Assembly: GCA_961205875.1 (NCBI GenBank)
Contig: OY540821.1
Coordinates: 4,960,001 to 5,024,000, forward strand
DNA: 64,000 bases
Direction of reading: 5' to 3'
From: Sialis fuliginosa
Taxonomy: Eukaryota > Arthropoda > Insecta > Megaloptera > Sialidae
This document shows, piece by piece, positions 18,008-61,475 of this stretch; the stretch's first letter is position 1, and every line of letters begins with the position of its first letter. The translations under genes and the position numbers were made by a program. The notes under the pieces were generated by a model. It saw only the letters and a program-made list of their open reading frames with translations, searched no databases and was not told the DNA's origin.

Positions 18008-18093
18008 TATATAAAGTGTTATATCACCTGTACAAGTTACTTGTTCTCACTATAGTGTCAATTAATTACCAACTAATTAAATAATTAATACAG
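18008..18093 (+). promoter_or_regulatory. TATA promoter and non-coding first exon of LRR gene 1
   Basis: TATATAAA at 18008-18015 puts the start near 18035-18045. Just downstream is AAGTTACTTGTTCT, shared with gene 3 and in part gene 2. The first exon ends CAG|GTAAGT at 18093. The intron is 18094-18154, only 61 bp, ending ttcttacag one base before the ATG. Start site is predicted. Confidence 0.7.
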
Positions 18094-18155
18094 GTAAGTC
18101 ATTATTAACTATTTTAAATTAACTTTTTGTATTTATTTAATTTAATTCTTACAGA

Positions 18156-19229
18156 ATGGATAAAAACGCATATATATTTTATATCGCAATAATTTCTTTA
18201 CATTGCGCAATTCAGTGTAACGCTGCTTGCAATTATGTTGCAAGAAAGAATCTAATCTGTGACCTTTTTACAAAATCTGAATACCTTCAGACAATATCTG
18301 AAGCCCAACAACCGTTAGAGACAATAATACTTTCAAGAAACCTAGAACCAATGGATCTTACTTCTAAATTTCTATTTAGCAACAACTTAACTACAAATAT
18401 ATTAGAATTCAATTCTAAACTGACTAGCTTTGCAGATATCGATGTATTTACGTTTAAAAAATGTGAACAAATTGAAACGATTTCAATACAAAATAACAGC
18501 GTACCGATTGTTCTTAAACTTGAATTATTTACAAAAATACCTAAATTAAAAACTGTTATTCTGAAAAATGCAAGTATCAGTAGCTTAAAGAGTGTCTTAT
18601 ATGTGCTCAGTAATGTAGAACATTTAGACTTATCTTATAATTCGATTCAATCAGTTTATAAGGATAATTTTGCGGGGTTTACCCAAATAAAATACTTAAG
18701 TTTAAAATCAAATAGAGTAACTAATGTTCAAACAAATGCTTTTAGTAATATGACTCAGTTAGAAGAAATTGATCTATCATATAATTCAATTTCTTACTTT
18801 GATTTTAAGCTACCAGCTGTTCGTACTTTAGATTTAAGTCATAATAAAATATCTGAAATACCAACAATCGATATAGAATATTTAGATAAGCTAGATCTTT
18901 CGTATAATTCTGTTAAAAGTTTTGGATTACATAATTTAAAAATGCGTCATTTAAATGTAAGTTTTAATAAAATAACAGATATGTGGAGAAGTGTTAATGT
19001 TTCTACAGTAGAAGTGTTGGATTTATCTAATAATTTTATCAATGGTTTTTATCTTGAACTAGATAATGTACGCAATTTTAATTTAAGTAATAATAAAGTA
19101 TCTTCACTTCCAAAATACACGCGTTATGAAGATATGGAGTTTTTGAATTTGAAGGGAAATAATGTACATGAAATTAATACGACTGAATCGAGAATCAATT
19201 TTCCAAATTTGAAAGGGATTTGGTTGTAA
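18156..19229 (+). CDS. Secreted leucine-rich-repeat protein, LRR gene 1 (short form)
   Basis: 357 residues. The signal peptide MDKNAYIFYIAIISLHCAIQ ends around CNA. It is followed by the family N-block: two cysteines about ten residues apart (ACNY...LICD), the SEYLQTISEAQQPLET segment and LFSNNLTTN. From about residue 150, nine recognisable LRRs of the LxxLDLSYNxI type follow, some only about 20-22 residues long. There is no C-terminal cysteine cap, transmembrane helix or GPI-like tail, so secretion is expected. Many N-x-S/T sites lie in NLS/NNS positions of the repeats. The start is fixed by the splice acceptor one base upstream. A polyadenylation signal AATAAA is at 19400-19405. It is the shortest member, probably by loss or non-expansion of repeat pairs. 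Ligand and function unknown. Confidence 0.93.
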   Translation: MDKNAYIFYIAIISLHCAIQCNAACNYVARKNLICDLFTKSEYLQTISEAQQPLETIILSRNLEPMDLTSKFLFSNNLTTNILEFNSKLTSFADIDVFTFKKCEQIETISIQNNSVPIVLKLELFTKIPKLKTVILKNASISSLKSVLYVLSNVEHLDLSYNSIQSVYKDNFAGFTQIKYLSLKSNRVTNVQTNAFSNMTQLEEIDLSYNSISYFDFKLPAVRTLDLSHNKISEIPTIDIEYLDKLDLSYNSVKSFGLHNLKMRHLNVSFNKITDMWRSVNVSTVEVLDLSNNFINGFYLELDNVRNFNLSNNKVSSLPKYTRYEDMEFLNLKGNNVHEINTTESRINFPNLKGIWL

Positions 19230-19827
19230 ACTTGCTGTGACGGTTAAAAATATATGTAAAAAAATGTTTAGTTAAAATTTAACTGATTTAAATGCATTTT
19301 TCTCGAAACGATTTTTTTCGATCTTGTCAAAATGAACTGATGTAATTTTTCTTAAATTTTCGTAATCGCTATATAATTGTTATTTTTTAAAACCGCTTGA
19401 ATAAAAAAAGTTCTTAACAAAAATTAAAACCGTCGCTATTTTTATGAAAAATTTAAATTTCGATAATCCTGTACCAAAATTATTTGGAGAAGAATTTATT
19501 TTTTTGGTCGTCACATCGAGGCTCATAACTTTGTAAATTTCTTATATTTTTCAATAAAAATTGGTACTGAATAAGTTGAATATATACTTAATAAAATATC
19601 CTCTACCCGATCCTGAAATAATTAGTGATACCTGTGACATTTTTTTTCAAATATTGATAAATTTTTGACCCGTCAAAGTATAGCTTTCTCCCTTAAACTG
19701 TGTAAACATTAACTTTATTAAATGTTATTTTTGTATTATTGTTGCAAAATATTATATAATAGTATAAATAATATATTTTTGGTGGTTTTAATCAAAGATT
19801 TAATTTTTTCTTTAGGTTTTTTGTTTA
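19230..19827. other. 3' UTR and intergenic DNA of LRR gene 1
   Basis: AATAAA at 19400 is a plausible polyadenylation signal. The remaining AT-rich DNA shows no gene. Confidence 0.5.
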
Positions 19828-20222
19828 TACAGTGTATTCCAAGTTGATTAAGACATAGGAAATTTAACATGGGGACAATTAGAAATGTTGTAGTAGCCTT
19901 TGGTCAAATTTAACGATGTGTGATTGGTGCATTTTGAAATGCCGCCTCGAAACCAACTGATAAATTTTAAATTAATCACCAGTATTTTGTTTTCAACCTT
20001 AATAAAGATTAAAGTAAGCATCCTAGATAAAATTATAATAATATTTTTTGGCAGATATAAAATTGAAAACAAAATACTAATGACAATTTTACTAAATTTT
20101 GTGGCGGCATTTCAAAATGCACCAATCACACATCGTTAAATTCGATCAAAGGTTACTACAACACTTCTAATTGTCCCCATGTTGAATTTCCTATGGCTTA
20201 AATCAACTTGGAATACACTGTA
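19828..20222. mobile_element. Foldback element with TA ends
   Basis: Ends TACAGTGTATTCCAAGTTGA and its complement, arms of about 180 bp pairing throughout (includes gatgtgtgattggtgcattt). TA at each end suggests a Tc1/mariner-type MITE. The open frames inside are arm readings. Confidence 0.9.
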
Positions 20223-20261
20223 TATTAATTAATAATGTCAAAATGTAATTATGAAGTTTTT

Positions 20262-20759
20262 ACTTCCTCGCCGATGATAGAGGAAGCGATGTGTCGATTT
20301 CTTAAAGCAGAACAAATTTTATTCTTCGATTTCAAAATTTCCGTTTTAGGTCAAGACAAACAGTTTTCTTTTGTGTGTGTGTGTGTGTCTTAAAAAAGCG
20401 AGTTATGTGAACATTTTTAAAAACTTTTTTTGTAGAGGATATAATTTTTTTTAAGAGTGATCATTACAACTTTTGTAGTAAAATATTTCCTTACGAAGAT
20501 AAACTTTCCTTTACAGAATCTTGCTTCATAATCGCCAATTGTTTGGATGCACGTGCTTTATGTTTGATTTTTAATGCATTTATAACAGAACAAATATATT
20601 TAGAAAATAATAATAAGGCACGTTTTAAGAAAAATTAAGAATTAGTATACTTTCTAATAAAATTGTATAAAATAAAAATCGATGTTTATTAAATTTGTTC
20701 TATGAATTTATTTGTTTGATGAATTTAGCACAAGGAAACACTGTGCATTCACAAGATGT
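20262..20759 (+). mobile_element. Old diverged copy of the TGCTTCCTCG family
   Basis: Starts acttcctcgc, keeps the gatttcaaaatt...gtcaagacaaacag block, the ttttgtagaggatataattt block and the aatttagcacaaggaaacac end in family order, with many changes. A GT microsatellite replaces the GTCC run. Confidence 0.7.
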
Positions 20760-21229
20760 TTTCTAAAATAAAGATAATTTTTATTTAATTAAATAAGTTA
20801 ATTGATGTTTTATTATTTACTTATACTGCTGATAAAGCATATTTATGTATATATATGGACGTGTCCAGGAATAAGTAAAGAAGGGCCAAGGCTAAATGAG
20901 CGATGCGCGTAGATTTCATATATAAAATGTCTTAATTAATTAATTTATTTTTTATTTGTTACGCTGTACACTGTTCATCTTGACTCGCAACATTGACTAA
21001 TGTTCAGACACTTACATTGCTGTTTTACTCGGCCGAGTACTCGCATAAATATAGACAGAAAAATACTAGGGCTAGTAAACTCGACCTAAAGCATTTAGTG
21101 GTAACTAAGTCACTCACCACTCGACTAAAAGAGTTTAGTCTGAACAAGGCTTTACTAAATCAAATTTTACACATTACGGTAATAAAGTATGCGCAGTCCA
21201 TGTCTCTGTTACTCTATGACAGTGATGGC
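20760..21229. other. Non-coding stretch
   Basis: No gene. The 100-codon non-ATG open frame at about 20993-21295 runs into the hAT end and shows no domain. Confidence 0.5.
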
Positions 21230-22317
21230 GAACCTATGGCACGCGTGCCACAAGTGGCACGCGTGATGATTTTGGTAGGCACGCAAAATTTCTGATTTGA
21301 CGATTTCTTTTTTCAAGGGAAATTTAAAAATTCTAATTGTACATACACTATAACTTATACTAATACTGTGTTCCATATTAACTGCATGAAGAGATAATAT
21401 TTCTATTTAACATATTTTTGTATGATGCACTTTTCTTCCACGATCTGTTTTTCTATTTTGTAACTCTAAATATATTGAGTTTTAATGTCTTTTTAAGATT
21501 TCTTTATGACAATAATTGAAATTCGCGGTAATTATACTGAAGTTCTTTTGCTTTTATGTTACAAACAAAATATAAAATATTTGGGTTCTGTTTACATAGA
21601 CTTATGACCTGCAAAACATTGATCCTTATCAAAATAAATGAAAATATAAATATAATTACGTTTAAATGGATGGATTTGGAAGATTTTGAAATGCAATTGG
21701 TAGAATTTCAGTCCAGTTCGATATGGAGACAAAAATTTATAGATTTAAGAAAGATTTTGGAAGATATGGAGCGAGATCGATTATCTGGAGGAACCCAAAA
21801 TAGTGCCGAAGCAGAATTATTAAAAACTTGGAAATCCATGCCAGACATTTTTTGTTCATTAAAAAAAATAGCAATGGCAATTTTAACCATTTTTTCATCC
21901 ACATATACATGTGAAGCATTGTTTTCTTCAATGAATTTGATAAAATCGGATATAAGAAGTAGACTTACAGATGAAAGTAGTGCTGCTTGTATCCTGCTCA
22001 AAGCCACCAGTTATGAACCGGATGTAAAAAATTTGGCAGCTGCCATACAAATGCAAAAATCACATTAAATTGTATTTTTTGATCAATTAAAATGAATAAT
22101 TTTTTGATTTTCTTTCATTGTTTTTTAATTTACATACTTATGTACATATATTATACCTAATAAAAGGAGTGTATTTTTTATTATATTTTATTTTTCATAT
22201 TTTTTTTTAAACTACGCAAACAGGATACTTTATAATTTTCTTATAGGCACGCTGCATAATATTGCACAAAAAATAAAAACTCATGACACGCAAGCTCAAA
22301 AAGGTTCGCCAACACTG
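21230..22317 (+). mobile_element. Deleted hAT transposon
   Basis: Terminal inverted repeats CAGTGATGGCGAACCT (left) and the complement of CAGTGTTGGCGAACCT (right), extended by subterminal GGCACGCGTGCC palindromes on the left. Flanks CTCTATGA and ATCTAGTT are a poor 8-bp match, so it is old or the duplication has decayed. It holds the C-terminal part of a hAT transposase. Confidence 0.85.
21556..22068 (+). pseudogene. hAT transposase, C-terminal remnant (dimerisation region)
   Basis: The frame of 170 codons starts at a non-ATG codon. The useful part, from about residue 90, reads WKSMPDIFCSLKKIAMAILT then FSSTYTCEALFSSMN, LIKSDIRSRLTDESSAACIL and ends TSYEPDV. This is the hAT C-terminal dimerisation domain as found in ZBED/GTF2IRD2-like transposases (CE.LFS.MN..KS..RSRLT). 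The N-terminal BED finger and catalytic region are missing. It lies inside matching hAT TIRs, so it is a dead transposase rather than a host gene. Confidence 0.9.
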
Positions 22318-22859: not shown

Positions 22860-23155
22860 TTTTTTTTTATATAAAGATTATTTATATTCAACTAAATAAG
22901 TAAATTGATTTATTATTGCATACTGCCGATAAAACATCCCATTGAAATTTTTCATATATTAAAAATTATTTAAAAATAAATTAAAGAACATGGAAGTCAT
23001 GTATGGTTCTCCATACCGATATTTTATCTTTTATTCGGGGTATTTTCTCTAGACCCCCTCCACCTCAATGAATCCGTGTATGAAAGGAATGCTTGTTTTA
23101 AACACAGAAGTCTTGTGTGATTTAATTCACAAAGATAAGACAAATATTAAGCTCA

Positions 23156-23253
23156 TATATAAAAGTCTTTGTAATTTTGTAACAGTTTTAAAATAAGTTA
23201 TTCTGCCTAACATTTACCAACTTAAACTGGAAATTTGAATGTTTAGTATTAAC
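23156..23253 (+). promoter_or_regulatory. TATA promoter and first exon of LRR gene 2
   Basis: TATATAAA at 23156-23163; AAGTTATTCT at 23195 resembles the start-site block of genes 1 and 3. The exon ends AAC|GTAAGT at 23253 and the intron runs 23254-23473, ending tattttag one base before the ATG. Confidence 0.68.
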
Positions 23254-23474
23254 GTAAGTAAATAAACTTAAGTTTTTCAAAATATTAAACTAGGTATAAT
23301 AATAAAATCATCTTATATTATTATAAGTTGTTTTTTATAAAAATGAAACAACCAAAGTAGAGCTAGGTTACTTCAATTGAATTAAATTTGGATTTTCAAA
23401 ACTAGATTGATTTTAATTTTAGAAATTAATTTTAATTTATTTAATTTTTAAATAACATATTCATTTATTTTAGA

Positions 23475-25340
23475 ATGGAAAAATTAATATACCTTCTTCT
23501 TTTTACACTGATGTCTCTAAACTGGGTAAAATTGTGCAACGCTTCATGTGGATATGTTGCTAAAAAGAATTTAGTATGTGACGACTTTACTACTTCCCAA
23601 TACCTCGAGACAGTATCTGAAGCTGGACAACCACTGGAGACAATGGTATTGTCAAAAAACCAGGAACCAATTGATCTTACTCAAGAATATCTATTCAGCA
23701 ACAACTTAACTACAAGTATATTAGATTTTAATTCTAGATTTACTAGTTTTACAAAAATAAATTCAAACACTTTTAAGAAAATTGAAAAAATCGAACAAAT
23801 TTCTATAGAAAATAATAACCTATCAATAAGTATTGATCTAGAAACATTTACACAATTACCAAAATTAAAGAAAGTTATTCTAAAAAATGCAGGTATTGAA
23901 AGTATTAATAGTGCAAAAAATACTTTCAGTAATGTAGAGCACTTGGACTTATCTAATAATCAAATTCAATCAATACATTCAATGGCATTTATGGGATTTA
24001 ATCAAACAAAAAAAATGAATTTAAAATCTAACAAATTAATTTTAATTCATCCAAAAGGATTCAGGAATATGACAAATTTAGAAAAACTCGATTTATCAAA
24101 TAATTCAATAAACAGTCTTGATTTTACAGTGGAAAATACTCGTAATTTAAACTTAAGTTATAATAACTTATCTTCCCTACCGAGTATAATAAATATGACA
24201 AAATTAGATGAATTAGATTTATCAAATAACTTATTAATTAGTATTTCTGTCATACCTAATAATTTACGATTTTTAAATATAAGTAACAATCGTATTAATT
24301 CCTTGCCAGATATCATTAATATGACCGATCTAGAAGTATTAGATCTATCTCATAATTCCATTTCCAGTTTCAGTAACAAAGTATACAATGTACGTTCAAT
24401 AAATTTAAGCTATAACAAAATACGTGAATTACCATATTTTTACCATATAAATAATATAGAAGTACTTGATCTATCTCATAATTTAATTGACCGTTTTGAT
24501 ACTTATCGAAATAAATTTGATGCCCGTTTCTTAGATTTAAGTTACAATAAAATAACTTCAGTTAATTTTGATTATGAATATAATATGCCTAGTTTGGAAG
24601 AGTTAGATTTATCTAATAATGAGATAAATTACTTTGAATTGTCAAAATCTTTCAAGTTATTGCGTGTATTAAATTTTAGCTATAATCAAATATCTTCATA
24701 TACAAATGGTGTCGATATACCCAATTTAAAAGTATTAGATCTGTCACATAATAAAATAAACAACTACTTGTATTTAAATGTTACCAAGTTGCCCAATGTA
24801 CACAGTTTAAATTTATGTTATAATCAGTTAACATATTTACCGAATTTCCAATATAATATCAAGCTAGAAGTGTTAGATGTCTCTCATAATTCACTTGGTA
24901 CTATTCAGACTACAAATTTAAATGTACGTAATTTAGATATGAGTTATAATCAAATACAATTTGTCCCATTTATTATAGAAATGGAAAAGCTTGAAGTGTT
25001 AAATCTGTCTCATAATAAAATCACTTGGTTCAATTCAAAAATTGGTAATTTACGTAGTTTAGATTTAAGTTATAATCAAATAACGGCATTGCCTGATGTT
25101 TTTGATACGACTAGTATAGCAGTGTTAGATCTGTCTCATAATTTAATTAAAAGGTTTAATTTTATCGTTCGAAATTTACGTAGTTTGGATTTGAGTTATA
25201 ACTCAATAGATATAATTCCAGGTAATATTTGTTATGAAAAGCTTGAGGTTTTAAAGTTGACAGGAAATAACGTAGAACATAAAATTAATATCACTGAAAC
25301 AAAAATAATTTTTCCCAATTTGAAAAGTTTTTGGTTCTAA
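23475..25340 (+). CDS. Secreted leucine-rich-repeat protein, LRR gene 2
   Basis: 621 residues. The signal peptide (MEKLIYLLLFTLMSLNWVKL, cut near CNA/SC) is followed by the SCGY...LVCDDF cysteine pair, the SQYLETVSEAGQPLETM block and LFSNNLTTS. About 21 LRR consensus stretches follow from residue 155. Many alternate between an LDLSHN/LDLSNN unit ending in a Phe-centred turn and an LDLSYN unit ending in LP, giving a two-LRR period of about 42-45 residues. The last repeat reads LKLTGNNVEH with no cysteine cap. No anchor, so an extracellular solenoid is expected. From residue 80 on it is nearly the same as gene 5, and the 3' UTR starts alike in both. AATAAA is at 25505. Function unknown. Confidence 0.95.
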   Translation: MEKLIYLLLFTLMSLNWVKLCNASCGYVAKKNLVCDDFTTSQYLETVSEAGQPLETMVLSKNQEPIDLTQEYLFSNNLTTSILDFNSRFTSFTKINSNTFKKIEKIEQISIENNNLSISIDLETFTQLPKLKKVILKNAGIESINSAKNTFSNVEHLDLSNNQIQSIHSMAFMGFNQTKKMNLKSNKLILIHPKGFRNMTNLEKLDLSNNSINSLDFTVENTRNLNLSYNNLSSLPSIINMTKLDELDLSNNLLISISVIPNNLRFLNISNNRINSLPDIINMTDLEVLDLSHNSISSFSNKVYNVRSINLSYNKIRELPYFYHINNIEVLDLSHNLIDRFDTYRNKFDARFLDLSYNKITSVNFDYEYNMPSLEELDLSNNEINYFELSKSFKLLRVLNFSYNQISSYTNGVDIPNLKVLDLSHNKINNYLYLNVTKLPNVHSLNLCYNQLTYLPNFQYNIKLEVLDVSHNSLGTIQTTNLNVRNLDMSYNQIQFVPFIIEMEKLEVLNLSHNKITWFNSKIGNLRSLDLSYNQITALPDVFDTTSIAVLDLSHNLIKRFNFIVRNLRSLDLSYNSIDIIPGNICYEKLEVLKLTGNNVEHKINITETKIIFPNLKSFWF

Positions 25341-30729: not shown

Positions 30730-31067
30730 ATATAACCGACTTAAAAAATCCTAAATATAGAAAAATATATAAAATAATTAAACAGTTTTTGAAGTCAGTG
30801 CCATGCCAGTAAAAAACTTTTTAAGAAATAAAAAATTAAAACCGACTTTAAATTTAATTTTGTTATATACATACTTTGTAATTTTTATTTTTTTATTCGA
30901 CTAAATAATCGCACGACAGACAAACACACTATGTGCACGCACTGGGTTTTATATGGATATCGATACTTTAAATTGAAAATAATAAAATACTTAAAAGATA
31001 TTGAATTTTTAGTAAAGAGATTACAGTTTTATAGATTATTTTAAATCTAGTGTAAATATATCATACA
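30730..31067. other. Repeat flank before LRR gene 3
   Basis: The first about 120 bp are the gtcagtgccatgccagtaaa repeat shared with 28200-28390. The rest is AT-rich upstream DNA. Confidence 0.5.
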
Positions 31068-31173
31068 TATATAAAGAAATATACCACCTATGCAATTTGA
31101 AAGTTACTTATTCTAAAAATTATAGCAAGAATCTAATAATAATTTCAGAAAAGTTGTGTGTTTTTAAATAGAC
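31068..31173 (+). promoter_or_regulatory. TATA promoter and first exon of LRR gene 3
   Basis: TATATAAA at 31068-31075; AAGTTACTTATTCT at 31101 matches gene 1's start-site block, and CCACCT precedes it as CACCT does in gene 1. The exon ends GAC|GTAAGT at 31173. Intron 31174-31704 ends caatttcag one base before the ATG. Confidence 0.7.
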
Positions 31174-31705
31174 GTAAGTAATTTTATAATTTTTTATTAT
31201 TGACAATTTAATAACTTATATATATTATTTATATATATATTATTAACATCCCCGTGGGTATCTTTCAAAATTGTAAAAAAAAAACTATTTTTTTATTTTT
31301 TATTAAACCGCGATTTGGTCACAAAAATAAGTTTAATAACATAAAAATACCCCTAAATTCGAAAAGATGAAAAAATTTTCTTCAATTTTCATATCCTATA
31401 AGTAAAAAAGGATCATATTTGACCTATCGGCATTACTTTGAAAATGAGCAATTTTTTCGAAAAAAGTGGTCCTTTAATTTTTTCCGTGAGTGTATATTAT
31501 ATATTATATATATTTTTATCTGGAATACTATAAAAGAATAATATAAATATTTCTATAAATTTTCATTACATTTTTAATAAGGAAAAAATTGACGAATTAC
31601 TTTAATCACTTATAATTTTTTTGTCTTTTTAAAATTATAATTAATTTTTGAAAATTACCTTTAATAAACCTGAATAAAATAACTATATTTTTTGTCAATT
31701 TCAGG

Positions 31706-33544
31706 ATGGAAAAATTCATATATTTTCTTTTTTCCACACTAATTTCTTTGCACTGTGCAATATTATGTAATGCATCTTGTGGTTATTTTATGAAAAAAAA
31801 TCTAATCTGTGATGGTTTCACTTATTCTCAATACCTCGAGACAATATCTAAAGCTGGGCAACCCCTAGAGACAATGGTACTATCCAGGAACCAAGAATCA
31901 ATGCATCTTTATCAAGAATTTATATTCAACAACAACTTATCCACAAGTATATTACAATTTAATTCTAAATCTACTAGTTTTACAAAAATAAATGTAAACA
32001 CTTTTAAGAAATGTGAGAAAATTGAAACTATTTCTATAGAAAATAATAACATATCAATAAGTATAGATCTAGAAACATTTACACAACTACCAAATCTAAA
32101 AACGGTCATTCTAAAAAATGTAAGCATTGATAGTTTAAATAACGTAAAAAAATCTTTAAGTAATGTAGAAAACTTAGACTTATCTGATAATTTAATTCAA
32201 TCTTTACCATCTTTAGTATTTGCCGGATTTAACCAAATAAAAACAATGAGTTTAAGATCAAATAAACTAACTTATATTCCTTCAATGATCTTTAGTAACA
32301 TGGGAAGTCTAGAAACACTTGATTTATCAAATAATTCATTAAAAGGATTTGAAGTTCGAGTAGAAAATCTACGCTTTTTGAATTTGAGTTTTAATAAAAT
32401 ATCTATACTGTCAGATATAATTAATATAAATAACAAAAAGTTAGAAGTGTTAGATCTATCAAATAATTTAATTTCTCGCTACTCTTTAGTACTAAAAAAT
32501 TTACATTACTTAAATTTAAGCCATAATGCTATAACTGTATTAAAATATATCAATGTTACGTCTAGTGTAGAATTTTTAGATCTATCATATAATAGTATAA
32601 TGCATTTTGAATATACACAATTAAATGCCCGTATTTTAGATTTAAGTTATAATATAATAAATTATTTACAAAGTATTATTAATATTACTGAATTAGAAAA
32701 TTTAAATCTATCACATAATTCAATTAGAAACATTGTAAATTGCAAAATTTACAATGTGCGTAACCTAGATTTAAGTTATAATAGCATAACAATTTTCGGT
32801 AATAATTTTGATATACCTAATATAGAAATATTGAATGTCTCTCATAATTCAATATCCAGTATTATAAAACTATTAAATCTTAATGTGCGTATTCTAGATT
32901 TAAGTTATAATAAATTAACTATGTTCCCCAATAACGCTAATTTTACGAATCTAGAATTGTTAGATTTATCACATAATTTAATATCCAGTATTTCTACCAT
33001 ACATTTCAATGCCAGTACAATAGATGCAAGTTATAATAAAATTGTCTCTGTACCGAATATTGGAACGGATATTGATATAAAAGTCTTTGATCTATCACAT
33101 AATTTGATCAACAGTATTAATATCACTGGGAATAGTCCACGTTATTTAAATTTATGTTATAATAAAATTTACGAAGTACTAAATTTTATAAATATGACAA
33201 AATTAGAGAGATTAGATTTATCTCATAATAATATTACTTGGTTCAATTCAAAAATTGATAATTTACGTAGTTTAGATTTAAGTTATAATCAAATTACAGC
33301 TTTGCCTAATGTTTTTGATGCGGCTAGTATATTTATTTTGAACCTGTCGCATAATTCAATAAAAAGGTTTGATTTTTTGGTGCATAATTTGTTCTGGTTG
33401 GACTTGAGTTATAATGGAATATCTCTAATTCCGGATGATATTCGATATGAAAAACTGGAGTATTTAAATTTGATAGGAAATAATGTACACAGAATTTCTT
33501 TATCTAAAGTAAATTTTCCAAATTTACACGAAATTGTAATGTAA
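31706..33544 (+). CDS. Secreted leucine-rich-repeat protein, LRR gene 3
   Basis: 612 residues. Signal peptide MEKFIYFLFSTLISLHCAIL, then SCGY...LICDGF, SQYLETISKAGQPLETM and LFSNN-equivalent FNNNLSTS. About 21 LRRs follow; many pairs run LDLSHNxIxx then LDLSYNxIxx, with N-x-S sites in almost every unit. The C-terminal units (NLRSLDLSYNQITALP) match genes 2, 4 and 5. Ends with a short LNLIGNNVH unit and no cap or anchor. The ATG follows a splice acceptor by one base. A TGCTTCCTCG family tail begins about 30 bp after the stop, so the nearest AATAAA (33652) lies inside the transposon. Confidence 0.95.
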   Translation: MEKFIYFLFSTLISLHCAILCNASCGYFMKKNLICDGFTYSQYLETISKAGQPLETMVLSRNQESMHLYQEFIFNNNLSTSILQFNSKSTSFTKINVNTFKKCEKIETISIENNNISISIDLETFTQLPNLKTVILKNVSIDSLNNVKKSLSNVENLDLSDNLIQSLPSLVFAGFNQIKTMSLRSNKLTYIPSMIFSNMGSLETLDLSNNSLKGFEVRVENLRFLNLSFNKISILSDIININNKKLEVLDLSNNLISRYSLVLKNLHYLNLSHNAITVLKYINVTSSVEFLDLSYNSIMHFEYTQLNARILDLSYNIINYLQSIINITELENLNLSHNSIRNIVNCKIYNVRNLDLSYNSITIFGNNFDIPNIEILNVSHNSISSIIKLLNLNVRILDLSYNKLTMFPNNANFTNLELLDLSHNLISSISTIHFNASTIDASYNKIVSVPNIGTDIDIKVFDLSHNLINSINITGNSPRYLNLCYNKIYEVLNFINMTKLERLDLSHNNITWFNSKIDNLRSLDLSYNQITALPNVFDAASIFILNLSHNSIKRFDFLVHNLFWLDLSYNGISLIPDDIRYEKLEYLNLIGNNVHRISLSKVNFPNLHEIVM

Positions 33545-36856: not shown

Positions 36857-38518
36857 TTAAATCCAAACAATTATCAAATTTGGAAACATGATTTGTATTT
36901 CGGTAATGTTAAATTTGTGTTCTACATCATTTCCTGTCAACTTTAAAACCTCAAGCTCCTCATACCGAATATCACCTGGAATTATATCTATTGAGTTATA
37001 ACTCAAATCCAAACTACGTAAATTTGGAACGAGAAAATCAAACCTTTTAATTAAATTATGTGAAAGATTTAATATTTCTACACTACTTGTATCAAAAACA
37101 TCAGACAATACTGTTATTTGATTATAACTTAAATCTAAACTACTCAAATTTTTAAATTCAGTATCCAACCAGGTGATTTTATTATGAGACAGATTTAACA
37201 CTTCAAGCTTATTTATATTTAAGACATATGGGAGGAATTGTATCAGATTATAACTTAAATCTAAATTAACTACATCAAATTTTATAAAATCAATATTGTG
37301 AATTATATTATGAGATAAATCTAACATTTCCAAATTAGGCATGCTCTCATTTTTTATATGTAAAATAGATATTTTATTATTACTTAAATTCAATACTTCT
37401 AATTTAGGCAAAGAAACATTTGTTGAAAATGCCTCTATTTGATTGTGACTTAAATCGAAAACACGTACATTGTTAATTTCAGAATTAAACAAAGAAATGT
37501 TATTATAGGATAGATCAAATATTTCTAGTTGAGGCATTTCAACAACACTAGGTAAATGCAATAAAGTATTATTTCTTACAATGAAATTACGCAAGAAACT
37601 ATACTCAAGTAAGCTGTTAAAATAATTGATACCATTATTAGATAGATCTAATATTTCTATTTTTGGTATAAAACTCCTATTTGGAAATGAAGATATTATG
37701 TTATTACTCAAATTTAAAAAGCGTATATTGCTAGATATAATTTCATAACTAGTCATTGAATTATGTGATATATCGAGTTCCTCTACCTTAGTCATATTAA
37801 AAATATTTGGTTTAACAGAAGATATATTATTATTACTTAAGTTTAAAGATAGCACATTTTCAATTCTAAAATCAAGAATTGTTAATGCATTATTTGATAA
37901 ATCAAGTATTTCTAAGTCTGTTATATTACTAAAACCATTTTTATGAATTGAAGTTAATTTGTTAGATTTTAAACTCATTGTTTTTATTAGGTTAAATCCG
38001 GTTAATACGTATTCAGGTATAAATTGAATTGAATTATCAGATAAGTCCAAGTGTTCTACATTACTTAAAGTATTTGAGACACTTTTTATTATGTCAATAC
38101 CTGCATTTTTTAGAATTACTGTTTTTAGTTTTGGTAGTTGAGTAAATGAATCAAGATCAATACGTATTGATGCGTTATTGTTTTCAAATGAAATTTTCTC
38201 AATTTCTTCACATTTCTTAAAAGTATTTACATTTATTTTTGTAAAACTAGAAGATATAGAAATAAATTCTTTTATGCTTCTAGTTAAATTGTTGCTGAAT
38301 AGAAATTCTTGAGAAAGATCAATTGGGTCTTGGTTTCTTAACAGAACCATTGACTCCAGTGGTTGTTCGGCTTCAGATACTGTCTCGAGGTATTGGGAAG
38401 TAGTAAAGTCGTCACATATTAAATTATTTTTAGCAACATATCCACATGAAGCGTTGCAAAGTTTTGCCCAGTTGAGAGAAATCAGAGTGAAAAGAAGAAA
38501 GTATATTAATTTCTTCAT
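36857..38518 (-). CDS. Secreted leucine-rich-repeat protein, LRR gene 4
   Basis: 553 residues. Signal peptide MKKLIYFLLFTLISLNWAKL, then SCGY...LICDDF and SQYLETVSEAEQPLESM. About 18 LRRs; the N-terminal region is closest to genes 2 and 3, the middle is its own, and the last about 110 residues (LDLSYNQIT...IIPGDIRYEELEVLKLTGND) match genes 2 and 5. One repeat (FIVRNNTLLHLP) departs from the LDLS pattern. No cap or anchor. The acceptor ttttag (38521-38520) is one base before the ATG. AATAAA at 36833-36828 lies about 25 bp after the stop. Confidence 0.95.
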   Translation of the reverse strand: MKKLIYFLLFTLISLNWAKLCNASCGYVAKNNLICDDFTTSQYLETVSEAEQPLESMVLLRNQDPIDLSQEFLFSNNLTRSIKEFISISSSFTKINVNTFKKCEEIEKISFENNNASIRIDLDSFTQLPKLKTVILKNAGIDIIKSVSNTLSNVEHLDLSDNSIQFIPEYVLTGFNLIKTMSLKSNKLTSIHKNGFSNITDLEILDLSNNALTILDFRIENVLSLNLSNNNISSVKPNIFNMTKVEELDISHNSMTSYEIISSNIRFLNLSNNIISSFPNRSFIPKIEILDLSNNGINYFNSLLEYSFLRNFIVRNNTLLHLPSVVEMPQLEIFDLSYNNISLFNSEINNVRVFDLSHNQIEAFSTNVSLPKLEVLNLSNNKISILHIKNESMPNLEMLDLSHNIIHNIDFIKFDVVNLDLSYNLIQFLPYVLNINKLEVLNLSHNKITWLDTEFKNLSSLDLSYNQITVLSDVFDTSSVEILNLSHNLIKRFDFLVPNLRSLDLSYNSIDIIPGDIRYEELEVLKLTGNDVEHKFNITEIQIMFPNLIIVWI

Positions 38519-40218: not shown

Positions 40219-40357
40219 TTTAATTATGCGGAAAAAAACCGTTTTATGTATGTATAATTATATATTATTATATTATTACAAATATATGTAGGTATATAGT
40301 ATAAAATCACTGTTATAAAGACAATTAAAATTCATGTATGATACAGCTCTTTATATA
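40219..40357 (-). promoter_or_regulatory. TATA promoter and first exon of LRR gene 4
   Basis: On the minus strand TATATAAAGAG occupies 40357-40350; the start is expected near 40320. The exon ends before GTAAGTAA at 40218, and the intron is 38520-40218 (about 1.7 kb, mostly the foldback element). The start-site block of genes 1 and 3 is not obvious here, so this call is weaker. Confidence 0.5.
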
Positions 40358-40837
40358 TGTTTCAATATAATAATATGTATCTATTATATCTGAAATAATT
40401 AAGCACAATTATAAGAACATGAAAATCATTTTATCCAATTATATTAATTTTTATTTAAATTATTGATAGTAAAAATATCTGATTCAATCAAACAATCTAT
40501 CTGTTGCAATTGTTTAAAAGTAATTAATAAATGAATTAAATTTTATGATCGATATCTTTTTAGAACAATACCAAAGATTTTAGGTCATGATATACTTTTG
40601 AGAAGTTTAAACAACTAATTCCATTAAAAAAATTTATACTTTGAAACCGATGGTTTTAAACTTAAAAAAATCATAACATGATAACTGACATTTTGATGTT
40701 AATAAACACTTATTCCGAGTTAGTTTTGCTTGTTCTTTCATTTGGTCTATTCATGGTGTCTGCATTTATTAAAGAAAAATCGTTACAGTTATCATGTTAT
40801 GACCTAAAACCTTCGAGTGTACTTATCTACTGGTCCA

Positions 40838-47054: not shown

Positions 47055-48911
47055 TTAGTACCAAACACTTTTCAAATTCGGAAAAATGATTTTTGTTTCA
47101 GTCATATTAACTTTTTTATGTTCTACGTTATTTCCTGTCAACTTTAAAACCTCAAGCTCCTCATAACGAATATCACCTGGAATTATATCTATTGAGTTAT
47201 AACTCAAATCCAAACTACGTAAATTACGAACGATAAAATTAAACCTTTTAATTAAATTATGAGACAGATCTAACACTTCTATACTAGTCGTATCAAAAAC
47301 ATCAGGCAATGATGTTATTTGATTATAACTTAAATCTAAAATACGTAAATTATTAATTTTCGAATTGAACCATGTGATTTTATTATGAGACAGATTTAAC
47401 ACTTGAAGCTTTTCCATTTCTATAACATATGGGACAATTTGTATTTGATTATAACTCATATCTAAATTACGTACATTTAAATTTGTAGTCTGAATAGTAG
47501 CAATTGAATTATGAGACATATCTAACACTTCTAGCTTGGTATTATATTGAAAATCTGGTAAATATGTTAAAATATTATAACTTAAATTTATACTGTGAAC
47601 ATTGGTCAACATGGATAATCTAATATTATAGTAGTACAATTTATTATGTGAGAGATCTAATATTTCTAAATTGGGCATATCGGAACCACTTGAAAATGAA
47701 GACATTTGATTGTAGCTTAAATTTAATACACACAATAACCTGAAATTTCCTGTCAAACTAAATTCAACTATCTCATTATTAGATAGATCAAACATTTCTA
47801 AACTAGGCATAACATTGTTAATTCTTACATAACGTATTTTATTATAACTTAAATCTAAGTAGCGTGCATCAAATTTAATGTCAGAAATACTAAGGTCAAT
47901 TAAATTATGAGATAGATCAATTACTTCCATAAAAGGTGTACAATAGTAATATGACAATGAAGATATTTTATTATAACTTAAATTTATTGAACGTACATTG
48001 TATACTTTGTTATAAAAACTGGATATGGAATTATGAGATACATCCAATACTTCTAGATCGGTCATATTAATGATATCTGGCAAGGAACTAATACGATTGT
48101 TACTTATATTTAAAAATCGTAAATTATTAGGTATGACAGAAATACTAATTAATAAGTTATTTGATAAATCTAATTCATCTAATTTTGTCATATTTATTAT
48201 ACTCGGTAGGGAAGATATGTTATTATAACTTAAGTTTAAATTACGAGTATTTTCCACTGTAAAATCAAGACTGTTTATTGAATTATTTGATAAATCAAGT
48301 TTTTCTAAATTTGTCATATTCCTGAATCCTTTTGGATGAATTGAAATTAATTTGTTAGATTTTAAATTCATTTCTTTTATTTGATTAAATCCCATAAATG
48401 CCATTGAATGTATTGATTGAATTTGATTATTAGATAAGTCCAAGTACTCTACAGTACTGAAAGTATTTTTTACACTATTAATACTTTCAATACCTGCATT
48501 TTTTAGAATTACATTCTTTAATTTTGGTAACTGTGTAAATGTTTCTAGATCAATACTTATTGATATGTTATTGTTTTCTATAGAAATTTGTTCAATTTTC
48601 TCAATTTTCTTAAAAGTATTTGAATTAATTTTTGTAAAACTAGTAAATCTAGAATTAAATTCTAATATACTTGTCGTTAAGTTGTTGTTAAATAGAAATT
48701 CTTGAGTAAGATGAACTGGATCGCGGTGTCTTGTTAGTATGATAGAGTCCAGTGGTTGTCCAGCTTCAGATATTGTCTTGAGGTATTCAGAATTAGTAAA
48801 GTCATCACAGAATAGATTCTTTTGGATAATATATCCACATGAAGCATTACATAATATTGCACAGTTTATAGAAATTACTGTGAAAATAAGAAGATATCTT
48901 GTTTTTTCCAT
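47055..48911 (-). CDS. Secreted leucine-rich-repeat protein, LRR gene 5 (mosaic)
   Basis: 618 residues from the ATG at 48911. An upstream in-frame ATG (48929) lies inside the intron, before the acceptor ttttag (48914-48913), so it is not used. Signal peptide MEKTRYLLIFTVISINCAIL; then SCGYIIQKNLFCDDF and SEYLKTISEAGQPLDSI, almost identical to gene 6. From about residue 80 it becomes nearly identical to gene 2 through the early LRRs (INSNTFKKIEKIEQISIENN...) and again at the C-terminus. About 21 LRRs, no cap or anchor. The start of the 3' UTR also matches gene 2. AATAAA motifs lie at about 46925-46913. The switch suggests gene conversion or unequal exchange. Confidence 0.95.
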   Translation of the reverse strand: MEKTRYLLIFTVISINCAILCNASCGYIIQKNLFCDDFTNSEYLKTISEAGQPLDSIILTRHRDPVHLTQEFLFNNNLTTSILEFNSRFTSFTKINSNTFKKIEKIEQISIENNNISISIDLETFTQLPKLKNVILKNAGIESINSVKNTFSTVEYLDLSNNQIQSIHSMAFMGFNQIKEMNLKSNKLISIHPKGFRNMTNLEKLDLSNNSINSLDFTVENTRNLNLSYNNISSLPSIINMTKLDELDLSNNLLISISVIPNNLRFLNISNNRISSLPDIINMTDLEVLDVSHNSISSFYNKVYNVRSINLSYNKISSLSYYYCTPFMEVIDLSHNLIDLSISDIKFDARYLDLSYNKIRYVRINNVMPSLEMFDLSNNEIVEFSLTGNFRLLCVLNLSYNQMSSFSSGSDMPNLEILDLSHNKLYYYNIRLSMLTNVHSINLSYNILTYLPDFQYNTKLEVLDMSHNSIATIQTTNLNVRNLDMSYNQIQIVPYVIEMEKLQVLNLSHNKITWFNSKINNLRILDLSYNQITSLPDVFDTTSIEVLDLSHNLIKRFNFIVRNLRSLDLSYNSIDIIPGDIRYEELEVLKLTGNNVEHKKVNMTETKIIFPNLKSVWY

Positions 48912-52022: not shown

Positions 52023-52214
52023 GTTATAAGCAAAGTTGTAAAAATAACCAAGAACAAACCACCCTATATTTTTTAAAATATGAAAATAATCCACTAAGAA
52101 AGTTTGTTTATATGCAATTTTGTAACCCTATACCGAATTCCAGAGCATTAAAAATAAATAAATAACATTTTCTATAAATTAAGTCGATATTTTATTGTGT
52201 AGTAGGGTTGGAAA

Positions 52215-52400
52215 CATCAAGTGGCCGCGAAATCCCCGGACCTGTCAATATTGGACTTTTTTATGGGTCGGGTCAAGCAGTTGGTTTACGCTGAAGCACA
52301 CCCTAATGATGTAGAAGTATTGAAACAGAGAATTAGAAATGCTATAAACTTCATTTCATTAGAACACATTCGAAACAATTATAGAGAACTAGCTGCTACC
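52215..52400 (+). pseudogene. Mariner-type transposase C-terminal relic
   Basis: Reads AAKSPDLSILDFFMGRVKQL then VYAEAHPNDVEVLKQRIRNA, matching the (W)PxxSPDLxPLDFFLWGxxK...VY region around the third catalytic acidic residue of IS630/Tc1/mariner transposases. The WPR is one frame off, so there is a frameshift. It is cut at about 52388 by a retroelement-like insertion. The rest of the enzyme is absent. Confidence 0.8.
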
Positions 52401-52486
52401 CGCGGCTTCGCTCGCGTGGATTTCGAAACCCCCATCCCCATGATATTTTTTTCGCCGGATCGAATGAAACTAATTACAACCATACA

Positions 52487-53105
52487 TAGTTTTATTAAAC
52501 ATACCTGATAAGATCGATCCTGTTAATTATATATTGTTCACCCAAAGGATTTTTTTATTTTCATAATCCATATCCACTATAATATTATGTTGATATAAGA
52601 ACTGTCACTTAGCACGCATCAAAACCATCTACAAAATCAAGTATCGTGTGAAACCAACACAAATTGAAACCATGACAACAATCCAGTGCCAAAACACGCT
52701 TGAAAACCAGCATTGAATCTAGCAAACAAACCAGCAGCCCCTTAAGCCCGGCGCACACGACGCTAGATTTGCTGCTAGTTTGTTTGCTAGATTCAATGCT
52801 GGTTTTCAAGCGTGTTTCGGCGCTGGATTGTTGTCATGGTTTCAATGTGTGTTGGCTTCACACGATCCTTGATTTTGTAGATGGTTTTGATGCGTGCAAA
52901 GTGACAGTTCTAATATCAACATAATACTGTAGTGGATATGGTTTATGAAAATAAAAAAATCCTTTGGGTGAATAATATATAATTAATGTTTATTAATTTC
53001 AACAGTTAAACTCAATGATCTAAGTTTAAAATTTCACTACAATTCAGTTTTCTCACATTTATTTTTTACATTCAGGATCGATCTTATAAGGTATGTTTAA
53101 TAAAA
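52487..53105. repeat. Large hairpin
   Basis: Left arm 52487-52740 is inverted in 52745-53105 (both carry cacccaaaggattttttta and gcacgcatcaaaaccatcta), meeting at the TTAA end of the MITE below. The right arm holds about 90 bp more. It looks like an inverted duplication arising from that MITE's end. Confidence 0.85.
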
Positions 53106-55493: not shown

Positions 55494-57122
55494 TTAAACA
55501 TATAAAATCCACATATCTTTTAAACTTGGAAAACTTATTTTTATGTTAGGTAAGTTAATTCTGTTTACGGAATTTCCAATCAAAATTAAATATTCTAATT
55601 TATCATAAAGAATATTGCTTGGAATTGTAGATATTCTATTAGAACTTAAATCTAAATTAATCAAACTACTCACAGTAAAATTTAAACTGGAAATTAAATT
55701 ATTAGATAAATCCAATACTTCCAAATTTGGAACAGTAACATTTCGTGAAAACTCAGATATTTTATTATAATTTAAATATAAATAACGTACATTGAAAATA
55801 TCGGAACTGAATCTAGTTATTTTATTATGTGATAGATCTAATGATTCTAAATTTGTAATTTTTATGATATCTTTCAAATGTGTTATACTATTATAACTTA
55901 TATTTAAATAACGTACACTGGAAATATCGGAATCGAAATTGCTAATTAAATTATGTGATAAATCTAGTAATTCTAAATTTGTAATATTTATGATATTTTT
56001 CAAAGTTTCTATATTATTATTACTTAAATTTAAATAACGTACCTTAGAAATATCTGAATTGAAACTGTTTATACTATTATGTGATAGATCTAATGTTTCT
56101 AAATTTGTAATATTTATTTTATCTTTCAAATATTGTATATTATTATAACTTAAATTTAAATAACGTACACTAGAAATGTCGGTATCGAACTTGTTAATAG
56201 AATTATGTGATAGATCTAATGTTTCTAAATTTATAATGTTTATGATACCATTTGACAACGTTGATATTTTATTATAACTTAAATTTAAATAACGTACACT
56301 AGAAATGTCGGTATCGAACTTGTTAATAGAATTATGTGATAGATCTAATGTTTCTAAAATAATATTTATGACTTTTGGCAACGTAGATATTTGATTATAA
56401 CTTAAATCTAAAGACCGTACATTGTTCAATGTGATACCAAACCAGTCCTTGATAATATAATCCCATGGAGAAGTGCCTCTAATTGAAATTGAGTTGTGTG
56501 ACAGATCTAATATTTCTAAACTACTCATATAACTGAATCCCATTAGATGAATATTATATAGTTTATTAAATTTTAAAGTCAGTGTTTTTGTTTGGTTAAA
56601 TCCGGTAAATACGTAGTCAGGTATTGATTTAATTTGATTATCAGATAAGTCCAAGTGTTCTACATTACTAAAAGAGTTTTCACTGCTATATATTCTGTTA
56701 TTATTTGCATTTTTTAGAATGACTGTTTTTAGTTTTGGTAATTGTGTAAATGAATCAAGATCTATAGAAATAGGTACATTATTTTCTTCTATATGAATTT
56801 TTTCAATTTTCTCAAGTTTTTTATATGTGCCTACATAAATATTTGTAAATTTGGTAGATCTCGAGTTAAATTCTTTTAAACTTGTAGTTAAGTTGTTGTT
56901 GAATAGAAATTCTTGAGTAAGATGAACTGGTTCGCGGTGTCTTGTTAGTATGATAGAGTCCAGTGGTTGTCCAGCTTCAGATATTGTCTTGAGGTATTCA
57001 GAATTAGTAAAGTCATCACAGAATAGATTCTTTTGGATTATATATCCACATGAAGCATTACATAATATTGCACAGTTTAAAGATATTGCGAAAAAAAGAA
57101 AAAGGCAGCTTATTTTCTCCAT
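55494..57122 (-). CDS. Secreted leucine-rich-repeat protein, LRR gene 6
   Basis: 542 residues. Signal peptide MEKISCLFLFFAISLNCAIL, then SCGYIIQKNLFCDDF and SEYLKTISEAGQPLDSI as in gene 5. About 17 LRRs. The central part repeats a 42-43-residue double unit, LETLDLSHNSINKFDTDISS then VRYLNLSYNxIxxLxxxIxI-xN, five to six times; two neighbouring units are almost identical in DNA. The first LRR region has an insertion (IRGTSPWDYIIKDWFG) absent in paralogs. The C-terminus (SNRISTIPSNILYDKLEYLI) is its own. No cap or anchor. The acceptor tttcag (57126-57124) is one base before the ATG; the first exon is about 4.2 kb upstream. Confidence 0.95.
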   Translation of the reverse strand: MEKISCLFLFFAISLNCAILCNASCGYIIQKNLFCDDFTNSEYLKTISEAGQPLDSIILTRHREPVHLTQEFLFNNNLTTSLKEFNSRSTKFTNIYVGTYKKLEKIEKIHIEENNVPISIDLDSFTQLPKLKTVILKNANNNRIYSSENSFSNVEHLDLSDNQIKSIPDYVFTGFNQTKTLTLKFNKLYNIHLMGFSYMSSLEILDLSHNSISIRGTSPWDYIIKDWFGITLNNVRSLDLSYNQISTLPKVINIILETLDLSHNSINKFDTDISSVRYLNLSYNKISTLSNGIINIINLETLDLSHNSINKFDTDISSVRYLNLSYNNIQYLKDKINITNLETLDLSHNSINSFNSDISKVRYLNLSNNNIETLKNIINITNLELLDLSHNLISNFDSDISSVRYLNISYNSITHLKDIIKITNLESLDLSHNKITRFSSDIFNVRYLYLNYNKISEFSRNVTVPNLEVLDLSNNLISSLNFTVSSLINLDLSSNRISTIPSNILYDKLEYLILIGNSVNRINLPNIKISFPSLKDMWILYV

Positions 57123-57704: not shown

Positions 57705-57712
57705 GCCATGAG

Positions 57713-58445: not shown

Positions 58446-58453
58446 ACCATGAG

Positions 58454-59253
58454 TGTTATGGAACTTTCTTATACGTATTACTTAAACAGTGTCCGTGTTT
58501 GCTATAGGTTCGATGAGACATTCTTGAACATAATATTCAGTGTGGGTGGTTCTAATTGATTATGCAAAAATAATTATTTCTGGCTAGATCATAAATCAAA
58601 TTTAGTGATCGTTTTAAAATGTAGATGGCTGTCTTCCCAGACGAAAGTTAATCCTGAGTATATAATTTCATCCTTCTATCATTTGTCGTTAAAAATTATT
58701 TGACACATGCTGTAGAGAATATTATTTTCTATAATTTATGTCAGATTAATTTTTATTCTATATTCTTTCGTTTTTTTTAATTTGTCAGTATTACGTATAA
58801 GAAAGTCCCGTGGCTCCCATGGTGGATATTTTTTGAAATTTATAGTGCGACTAAGGATATTTGTGTATTGATGAAATAAGAATAAGAAGAACTTACTAAT
58901 GTATAATAAAAAATACAGGGTAGTATTAAGAAAACACTTCAATACAAATTCTGAGCCAGTATTGTAATCTATTCTATAAAATATATTTATTTAAAATATA
59001 ATAAATTACTTACTTTTTACTATACGAAAATTATATGTATGTATGTTTCATTAACATATAATATGTACCTATATTAATGTTACCTATGTTACAACTGTTT
59101 TCATATAGGTAAGTAACTTTTATAAGTGGTTAAAATCTTTATTTACTAGTATAATGGAATGAATACCATTTTTACCTCCAAGTATGATCTTATGAGACCT
59201 TTTATCTATTTAGAAAAATATTTAATTTATTATTTATAAACTGCACAGTTATC
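58454..59253. other. 5' intron of LRR gene 6
   Basis: No gene or bounded repeat. AT-rich. Confidence 0.5.
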
Positions 59254-59802
59254 TACTGGGTGTTCCAGACCACCCGTCCACTGTTTTACGCCCAAACTAT
59301 TGAAGATAAAGTTTTATGATAAAAAATTTACCATATATATCGACCCTAAAGAATTTCAGGAAAATATTTTCAACCCCCTCAAACTACCCCCCATGGGGGA
59401 GTTTTAGGGGGTTGAAAATATTTTATATTATTTCTATTTTCAAATAAAAATAAAAAAATAAAATTACATTAATATTTAACGAAACTAGAGCATTTTTAGT
59501 AAAACCCAAAAATTTGGGAACAAGTCGCCATAATTTCTAAACAATTGAATGTATGAAAAAAAGTTTTTTATAAAAGTTTCTGACTTTTTTATGATCTTTA
59601 AAATTATCTACTTTTCAATATACTGTTTCATTTGATTTTGCTGACAAACGGGCATGTACCCCACAAACTGCCCCCCATGGGGGAGTTTTAGGGGGTTGAA
59701 AATATTTTCCTGAAATTCTTTAAGGTCGATATAAATTTTTTTTATCATAAAACTTTATCTTCAATAGTTTGGGCGTAAATAATAGTCTGGAACACGCGGT
59801 AT
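59254..59802. mobile_element. Foldback element in the 5' intron of LRR gene 6
   Basis: Family of 38721-40143: tactgggtgttccagacc with gcccaaactattgaagata, and the inverted copy tctggaacacgcggtata. The ccccatgggggagttttagg block occurs twice. Confidence 0.88.
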
Positions 59803-59980
59803 ACTATACATATAAAAACCTAGAAACACTGAAAAGAATAACCTAATCATAAAATTTAACATTTTTTCCAAACCAATAAAGAACATTTTAAGAAAGAAAA
59901 AAAATAAAACCGACTTCAAAAACTTAAACTTTATTATTAAGTATACTTTTCAGTGTTTTTAGGTTTTTTTAAGTCTTTTG

Positions 59981-60304
59981 CAGTGGCGAAGCGAGGGGGG
60001 GGGCAAAGGGGTCTATCATGCCCCGGGCGCCACTTATAGAGGGGCGCTAAATGGCTCATAACCTTTCAAACCGCATAGCATATTTATAAAATATATGCAA
60101 CTGAAGACCTTTTTGTTTTTTTTTTTAGTCGTGGAAATATATTTAATAAATAAGGTTAGATAAAATTAAAACTGAAGACTTTTTTTTTTTTTAGTAACGC
60201 CAATTTCAATTCAGATTTACTATAAATTATTATTTTTTTCTTAATTTTGGGGGCGCCAAAAAGATATCGTACCTCGGGCGCCAATTATGCTTGCTACGCA
60301 ACTG
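59981..60304. mobile_element. hAT-like MITE with perfect 8-bp target duplication
   Basis: Starts CAGTGGCGAAGCGAGG and ends GCTTGCTACGCAACTG; flanked by GTCTTTTG (59973-59980, 60305-60312). It landed at the 5' edge of the next TGCTTCCTCG copy, whose first two bases belong to the duplication. Confidence 0.9.
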
Positions 60305-60310
60305 GTCTTT

Positions 60311-61067
60311 TGCTTCCTCGCAATATCGAAGATACGAGAAGCTATGTGATCGTTTCAGATTGAGACAAAAAAAATGTTCTTCGATTTCAAAATTTTAAAT
60401 TGATTTATCCGTTTCACGTCAAGGTAAACACTTTTCGTTCCGTGTCTGTCTGTCTGTGTGTCCGTCCGTCCGTCCCCTGAATCCTTGTCACACGCATAAC
60501 TCATGAACCACTAAACCGATATTATTGAAACATGGTCGGATGGTTGGGGACGGTCCCATTTTAAATTATTAAAATTGTATGTAAGGGGGAGGGGTAACAC
60601 CCCAAAATATTTATTTTTTCAAGATATCTCAAGAACGACACATGTTACGTGAAAATTTTATAGAATATTTTTTGTAGAGCATTAAATTTCCTCTAAATTG
60701 GTCTACGTTTGTTGTAAAATATTTCCTTACAAAGATTTATCTCAATTTATTTTAAAAATTCGTGTTTTGTTTTTCTAAATTGATATTTGATTGGATATAT
60801 AAAATTTCATTTTGACGTTTTAGATGTCATTTTGGCGTTTTAAATGCCATTTTGACATTTGCACATAATAAGAAAATATACGAAAAGGTGCGTTTTACGA
60901 AAAATTTCGAACTAATATTTTCTAGTAAAATTGTGTAAAAATTAAATGGTTAACCAATTCCAGTCAATTTATCTAAACACTATCGGTTTTTATTTAAATT
61001 GTTGAATAATTAACTACCTTTGGTGAATTTAGCACGAGGAAGCACTGTGCATTTACTTGGCAGATGT
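60311..61067 (+). mobile_element. TGCTTCCTCG family, copy 7 (full)
   Basis: Complete, tgcttcctcgc to ggcagatgt, with the GTCT/GTCC run at 60445-60475. Lies in the 5' intron of gene 6. Confidence 0.92.
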
Positions 61068-61127
61068 TTTTTTTAAATTTTTTGTTTCATCACGTTACAT
61101 TTTGAAGCAAAAATGTAATTTGTAATA

Positions 61128-61475
61128 TTGAATACTATCTATAATAATAATAATTTGGAGTTATTTGTAACTAAATAAAAAATTAAAACGATGTGCATTT
61201 TATCATATATTAAACATACTAAAAAATAGTATGTTTAATATATGATTTTATGTTCAAATCATGTTGTTTCTAAAATTACTTACTTATATTCTTATTATTT
61301 CTATTCTTATTTTTATTCTGTATGTTGGGTGGTGTACCGGTTTCTTGGTAATTCAGTTTTTGCTGTAACTTGGCTTCGGAATACTCTTCAGGTTGATATC
61401 AGACTATAACGGATAACTTCACTTCACTATATTATTTATAGCATGGAAAGGAAACGTTGCAGATTTTGTAACAGT
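61128..61475 (-). promoter_or_regulatory. Promoter and first exon of LRR gene 6 (duplicated unit, copy B)
   Basis: Minus-strand CTATAAATA at 61441-61433, exon to 61284, donor GTAAGTA at 61283; intron 57124-61283. Matches copy A (50882-51189) over TATA, exon and donor, with a small inverted hairpin (catatattaaacatacta) added at 61203-61247. The exon carries about 25 extra bases of attctt type. Confidence 0.75.

Follow-up and report, generated by a model that had tools for sequence, protein, structure and literature searches.

The 64,000-nucleotide stretch of the Sialis fuliginosa genome analysed here (assembly GCA_961205875.1, OY540821.1; contig 13, bases 4,960,001–5,024,000; hereafter the window) carries six intact leucine-rich repeat (LRR) reading frames, g1–g6, which would represent the core of an array of long-class genes within a lineage-expanded family of soluble LRR proteins. 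The family also includes a short class, located outside of the window, in which the concave face of the LRR solenoid seems to evolve faster than the remainder of the sequence, a result that is new here. The proposal, held tentatively and at somewhat less than an even chance, is that this is a soluble, secreted, lineage-expanded LRR family whose short class binds foreign proteins, probably in the larval oral or gut secretion.

Window Genes and Their Proteins

All six reading frames have Pfam LRR matches. On the forward strand, g1 (18156–19229; Pfam LRR_8, 2.5e-26) encodes a protein of 357 amino acids, g2 (23475–25340; Pfam LRR_4, 1e-60) one of 621 amino acids, modelled by AlphaFold2 with a mean predicted local distance difference test score of 86, and g3 (31706–33544) a secreted-type LRR protein of 612 amino acids. 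The other three, called like g3 from open reading frame and Pfam match, lie on the reverse strand: g4 (36857–38518) codes for a secreted-type LRR protein of 553 amino acids, g5 (47055–48911) for one of 618 amino acids that is 81% identical to g2, and g6 (55494–57122) for one of 542 amino acids with a near-copy (L009, 95% identity) outside of the window. The start codon of g5 was taken as the ATG following the splice acceptor, 18 bases inside of the first one.

The six proteins contain 11, 20, 19, 19, 20 and 16 LRR motifs, respectively, close to the 9–21 repeats counted in an earlier note on this DNA. The hydrophobic leader found in all six was scored by hydropathy, and leader calls rest on hydropathy and model, no signal-peptide program having been used. 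A conserved cysteine pair (C25 and C35, ten positions apart) is present in 6/6 proteins, and none of them contains another hydrophobic segment (maximum hydropathy of 1.02–1.35 over 19 residues); among 65 family members, the maximum of the mature part exceeds 1.6 in two. Thus, the earlier note was right in describing six intact secreted-type LRR genes with a conserved two-cysteine N-block and no membrane anchor. The repeats run to the C-terminus, with the proteins ending at or just past the last one.

The statement that the proteins are without a cap stands only in part. No Pfam match to LRRNT or LRRCT was obtained in the six window proteins or in 10 N-blocks, but in the predicted models an N-terminal hairpin and helix precede the LRRs; the C-terminal end is predicted to bear just one 7-residue helix in both models. 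The N-block profile matched PDB entries mainly through its LRR part (positions 34–83), and a few matches (LRRC4B, Slit2 and chondroadherin) extend into the cap, which is possibly a reduced LRRNT. Foldseek analysis of the long-class model returned LRR proteins, receptor ectodomains among them, at TM-scores of 0.3–0.65. TIR and F-box domains gave no Pfam match up to an E-value of 0.1 in the six window proteins, and the NCBIfam scan produced LRR cross-matches only, all under their cut-offs. Read from the sequence or predicted, the proteins would consist of an LRR solenoid behind a signal peptide and a two-cysteine N-cap, with no anchor or signalling domain.

Promoters, Leader Exons and Splice Acceptor

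Each gene would have one coding exon, preceded by an intron that ends beside the start codon. An acceptor of the form AG|n|ATG was found in 6/6 window genes, as previously claimed, and in 15/15 of the long-class members read; ten of these 15 were scored by script, which had picked a later ATG in the other five; these were read by eye from its output. By chance, AGN precedes an ATG in 71 of 1966 cases in the window. In many genes of the short class, an AG, often following a pyrimidine run, likewise stands shortly upstream of the start codon, at a distance of a few bases. Script scoring of both classes (n = 65) placed AG one base before the ATG in 12 genes and within 12 bases in 32, the latter being a looser measure without chance control, and found neither in 21.

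The TATA motif [CT]ATATATAAA[AG] occurs six times on the two strands of the window, and four of these sites (18006, 23154, 31066 and 40359) are located upstream of g1–g4. The TATA box and candidate non-coding leader exon of g1 span 18006–18093 (+), with a GTAAGT donor at 18094. When used as a blastn query, this promoter-leader block matched g3 (E-value, 1e-5), g4 (0.004) and several members outside of the window. The candidate TATA box and leader exon of g3 were accordingly placed by blastn and motif at 31066–31173 (+; donor GTAAGT at 31174), and the TATA box and start of a candidate leader exon of g4 at 40268–40359 (−), where the donor is not settled. For g2, the candidate TATA box and leader exon (23154–23253, +; donor GTAAGT at 23254) were found by motif and donor alone, not by homology, and were missed by the position matrix. 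A degenerate TATA sequence and a possible leader region of g6 (59052–59147, −) are doubtful: the g1 query gave a weak match near 59147 (E-value, 0.21), and the leader profile scores of g6 are circular because g6 itself is in the profile. No TATA box or leader exon of g5 was found by motif, blastn and position-matrix scan of the window. The earlier view that all six genes share a TATA box, a leader exon and one gene plan therefore holds for the acceptor and for the promoters of g1–g4, which are clear, but is in doubt for g6 and could not be shown for g5.

Family Size and Genomic Distribution

The assembly examined comprises 392,097,322 bases with 14 large contigs; the published account of the Sialis fuliginosa genome describes, in its accessible part, 392.1 Mb on 14 chromosomes, with 15.59 kb of mitochondrial DNA and 47,092,443 bases in the longest scaffold (PMC11549539). 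A search with g2, in which 22 of 107 rows were used in locus grouping, revealed that the array runs past the window to about C13:5,046,653 and has ten loci in total, one of which (L010) is truncated and carries a stop within the N-terminal part. No basis was found for an end of the cluster at 61475. Together with six dispersed genes on four other chromosomes, this array makes up the long class.

The same search also reaches the short class, whose proteins are mostly 270–300 residues long. A genome search with one short protein yielded 146 matches, six of them with an internal stop. After the 15 weakest rows (E-values from 6.8e-11 to 9.4e-7) had been left out, 13 of which fall in large LRR frames that other rows cover and two in large frames that they do not, the remaining 131 matches were grouped into 118 loci. 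Fourteen of these resemble other LRR genes and were excluded by position and large frame, leaving 104 short-class candidates, some of which may themselves be other LRR genes; the family counts are lower bounds. The candidates are spread over 11 of the 14 chromosomes, with the biggest groups, of 32 and 16 loci, on chromosome 1. In total, 83 of the 104 extend to the N-block and 68 form one full open frame, while 36 are not full single frames as matched. Two frames on the same chromosome are composite: L057 (C1:14401900–14406300) is a 1357-residue frame of six head-to-tail short LRR modules and L058 (C1:14426450–14428750) a 667-residue frame with three such modules and the start of a fourth, each copy having its own two-cysteine block.

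Profiles of the long and the short class align over 261 columns, from the leader to the LRRs, with an E-value of 4.5e-48. Judged from this alignment, the two classes are homologous end to end and constitute one family.

Repeat-Unit Variation and Probable Gene Conversion

Repeat-period analysis identified tandem 126-bp units (42 amino acids, two LRRs) in g6 (55758–56358, −), which are the apparent source of length variation; similar periods are found in g5 (126) and g3 (129). Comparison of g2 and g5 in 90-base windows gave a mosaic of 69–100% identity, and this pattern suggests gene conversion between the two genes. The family would thus have grown by tandem duplication and gene-conversion-like exchange, accompanied in the long class by in-frame gain and loss of two-LRR units. 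The earlier description of a secreted-type, expanding family with variable repeat number is supported.

Evolution of the Concave Face

Concave sites were defined beforehand from the LRR register: five exposed positions in the LxxLxLxxN motif of each of seven repeats (35 sites). The selection tests included 48 short members, the divergent s19 and z62 and the multi-unit L057–L059 having been dropped. Over 16 short sister pairs, the ratio of nonsynonymous to synonymous divergence (dN/dS) was 0.90 at concave sites, compared with 0.65 for the remaining variable LRR sites and 0.17 for structural ones, which were picked for low entropy. In the seven of these pairs that are recent, i.e., have low synonymous divergence, dN/dS reached 1.55 (bootstrap, 0.95–2.53) at concave sites versus 0.39 (0.28–0.54) at the rest, with nearly equal dS (0.148 concave, 0.139 rest). 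Maximum-likelihood estimates of omega for concave sites and the rest were 1.79/0.34 (12 genes), 0.71/0.17 and 1.66/0.77 in three clades (A, B and C), picked by the authors from the tree and covering 24 of the 48 short members.

The concave ladder of the long class is uniform. Among 216 repeats, position x4 is D or N in 189, x6 is S in 179, and x7 is Y, H or N in 174; in g2 and g6, E and R alternate between adjacent repeats.

Proposed Function and Alternative Explanations

On the best reading, the short-class proteins are soluble binders of foreign or fast-evolving proteins. Their concave face would most likely bind proteins of other organisms, and it is this proposed binding that would account for its diversification. 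The long class, given its uniform periodic ladder, would more likely have a repetitive or multivalent partner or a scaffold role. The larvae of Sialis fuliginosa are described, in the accessible part of the genome report, as predators of invertebrates in running water (PMC11549539), and for that reason the plant or host interaction considered in the earlier note does not fit. The venom of lacewing and antlion larvae (Chrysoperla carnea, Euroleon nostras) contains LRR proteins, the role of which is called unclear in the accessible text of two reports (PMC11319779, PMC12758981). The most likely site of action would be the larval oral or gut secretion, with prey proteins as targets, followed closely by humoral immunity; the secretion is ranked slightly first because of the predatory larva and these venom proteins.

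Several points weigh against this reading. Concave sites exceed the other variable sites in 11 of the 16 sister pairs, and the bootstrap interval for the concave dN/dS of the recent pairs spans 1. The concave omega is significantly above 1 in only one of the three clades (p = 0.017, 0.21 and 0.16, uncorrected for three tests), and clade C, with an N-block omega close to 1 as well (0.96), may be relaxed as a whole. Estimates of dN/dS can also be distorted by a strong AT bias and by conversion among paralogs, and Megaloptera venom did not come up among the open-access papers listed. The long class (six genes, five from the window) has no concave excess (omega of 0.45 versus 0.58 for the rest), which also makes solvent exposure alone an unlikely cause of the short-class pattern. 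The rapid adaptation postulated earlier therefore finds support in the short sister class outside of the window but not in the window genes.

The principal alternative is humoral immune recognition, i.e., that the proteins circulate in the haemolymph and bind microbial or parasite molecules. Mosquito LRIM1 and APL1 act in this way with the complement-like TEP1, and secreted LRR-only proteins with a concave face diversifying in one class would suit such a role. Among the sequence matches with solved structures was APL1B (4xgo; E-value, 6.8e-15), and APL1 was among the weak N-block-profile matches, through its LRR part (3o6n; E-value, 0.00057). However, LRR matches at such strength are generic, and the C-terminal coiled coil is absent, as the proteins stop at or just past the last LRR; immune recognition is a real possibility, but a minority one. 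A role in reproduction or development (in the egg coat, in seminal fluid, or in cuticle or matrix), settings in which quick-changing binding faces are also common, would agree with the fast concave face of the short class, and a regular repeated ladder like that of the long class could well belong to a matrix protein, yet nothing in the analysis points there and this role appears improbable. That an easily duplicated gene was amplified in a mostly neutral way, leaving few functional members, is less probable still. The truncated member L010, the internal stops in 6/146 matches and the 36/104 candidates that are not full single frames as matched speak for it, but 68 of the 104 candidates are full open frames, structural positions (chosen for low variability) are strongly constrained at an omega of 0.17, and promoter-leader blocks remain recognisable among members.

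Additional Features of the Window and the Assembly

A hAT transposase remnant with a dimerisation domain (Pfam E-value, 5.1e-07) is located between g1 and g2 (21556–22068, +). By eye, frames at 52206–52508 (+) and 62080–62403 (−) resemble a mariner-type transposase fragment and a reverse-transcriptase tail, respectively. A 561-residue frame rich in lysine and asparagine (7323–9008, −) includes an ATG-started part of 408 residues with no Pfam match, and a short frame at 11009–11290 (−), which starts hydrophobic and ends basic and peptide-like, may be an exon from the precursor of a secreted peptide. Scanning the window for Rfam families and tRNAs gave no matches.

Elsewhere in the assembly, contigs C15–C19 (15.6–25.6 kb; 38–44% G–C in the first 1000 bases) look bacterial by eye and are probably contamination. 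A braconid wasp origin, which the AT-rich genome and the LRR proteins in such wasps' venom could suggest, was rejected. Mitochondrial genes stand in the order ancestral for insects, from which wasps and true lacewings usually depart. The ecdysone receptor domain is nearest to chain 2nxx (176/201 identical residues, versus 159/196 for 1z5x), these chains being presumably from Tribolium and Bemisia, respectively. A GH28 search of the genome gave no match, nor did an L-fibroin search, which is little informative as the control genomes likewise gave none.

Comparison with Known Systems

Toll-like receptors combine a TIR domain with a transmembrane segment, and the window proteins show neither; effectors of the Hessian fly type are F-box/LRR proteins, whereas no F-box match was seen here. 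The LRR fold is shared with proteins of the Nogo receptor, LGR, chondroadherin and SLRP type. Nogo receptor and SLRP type proteins have a four-cysteine LRRNT and an LRRCT, unlike the alderfly proteins with their two N-cap cysteines and no match to either domain. The variable lymphocyte receptors of agnathans are likewise LRR binders with concave-face diversity; they carry a four-cysteine LRRNT and an LRRCT and are assembled somatically from an incomplete germline gene, whereas the alderfly genes are complete in the germline and encode neither standard caps nor a stalk. Mosquito LRIM and APL1 are, like the alderfly proteins, secreted LRR ectodomains of an insect but differ in having a C-terminal coiled coil.

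The closest likeness in design, a leader followed by LRRs only, is to venom proteins of neuropterans and braconids. An LRR expansion is cited for the green lacewing Chrysopa pallens in the accessible text of the neuropteran reports (PMC11319779, PMC12758981). Braconid venom LRR proteins (Aphidius ervi, Psyttalia) are described, in the accessible parts of two papers, as consisting of a signal peptide and LRRs only, with 8 or 9–19 canonical repeats, and interference with host Toll signalling has been proposed (PMC4035087, PMC5078806). These differ from the alderfly family in belonging to another insect order and, as far as the accessible text goes, in numbering two to four sequences per species. 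According to the available portion of their paper, the authors who reported an F-box/LRR expansion in Aphidius ervi considered it unrelated to venom (PMC7257214), and this weighs against the braconid-venom analogy. In the open-access literature, mostly without subscription journals, no listed title or abstract start described this family, and "leucine-rich repeat" together with "Megaloptera" retrieved only a neuropteran venom paper.

In design, the Sialis family is similar to secreted LRR families already known from insects. A broader interpretation, possible but on the unlikely side, is that it represents a germline-encoded repertoire of soluble LRR recognition proteins in an insect, with about 120 candidate loci. 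The short members would diversify their binding face, the repertoire would be deployed against prey or pathogens, and conversion together with the exchange of repeat units would keep the long class uniform beside it. If true, this would be a germline LRR repertoire functionally comparable to the lamprey receptors or to plant resistance LRRs. With two classes that change in opposite ways and a face that is a clear candidate for binding, this family from a sister order to lacewings and antlions could be used to ask if proteins of this kind serve as prey-directed binders or as immune receptors, and at what point Neuropterida came to use venom.

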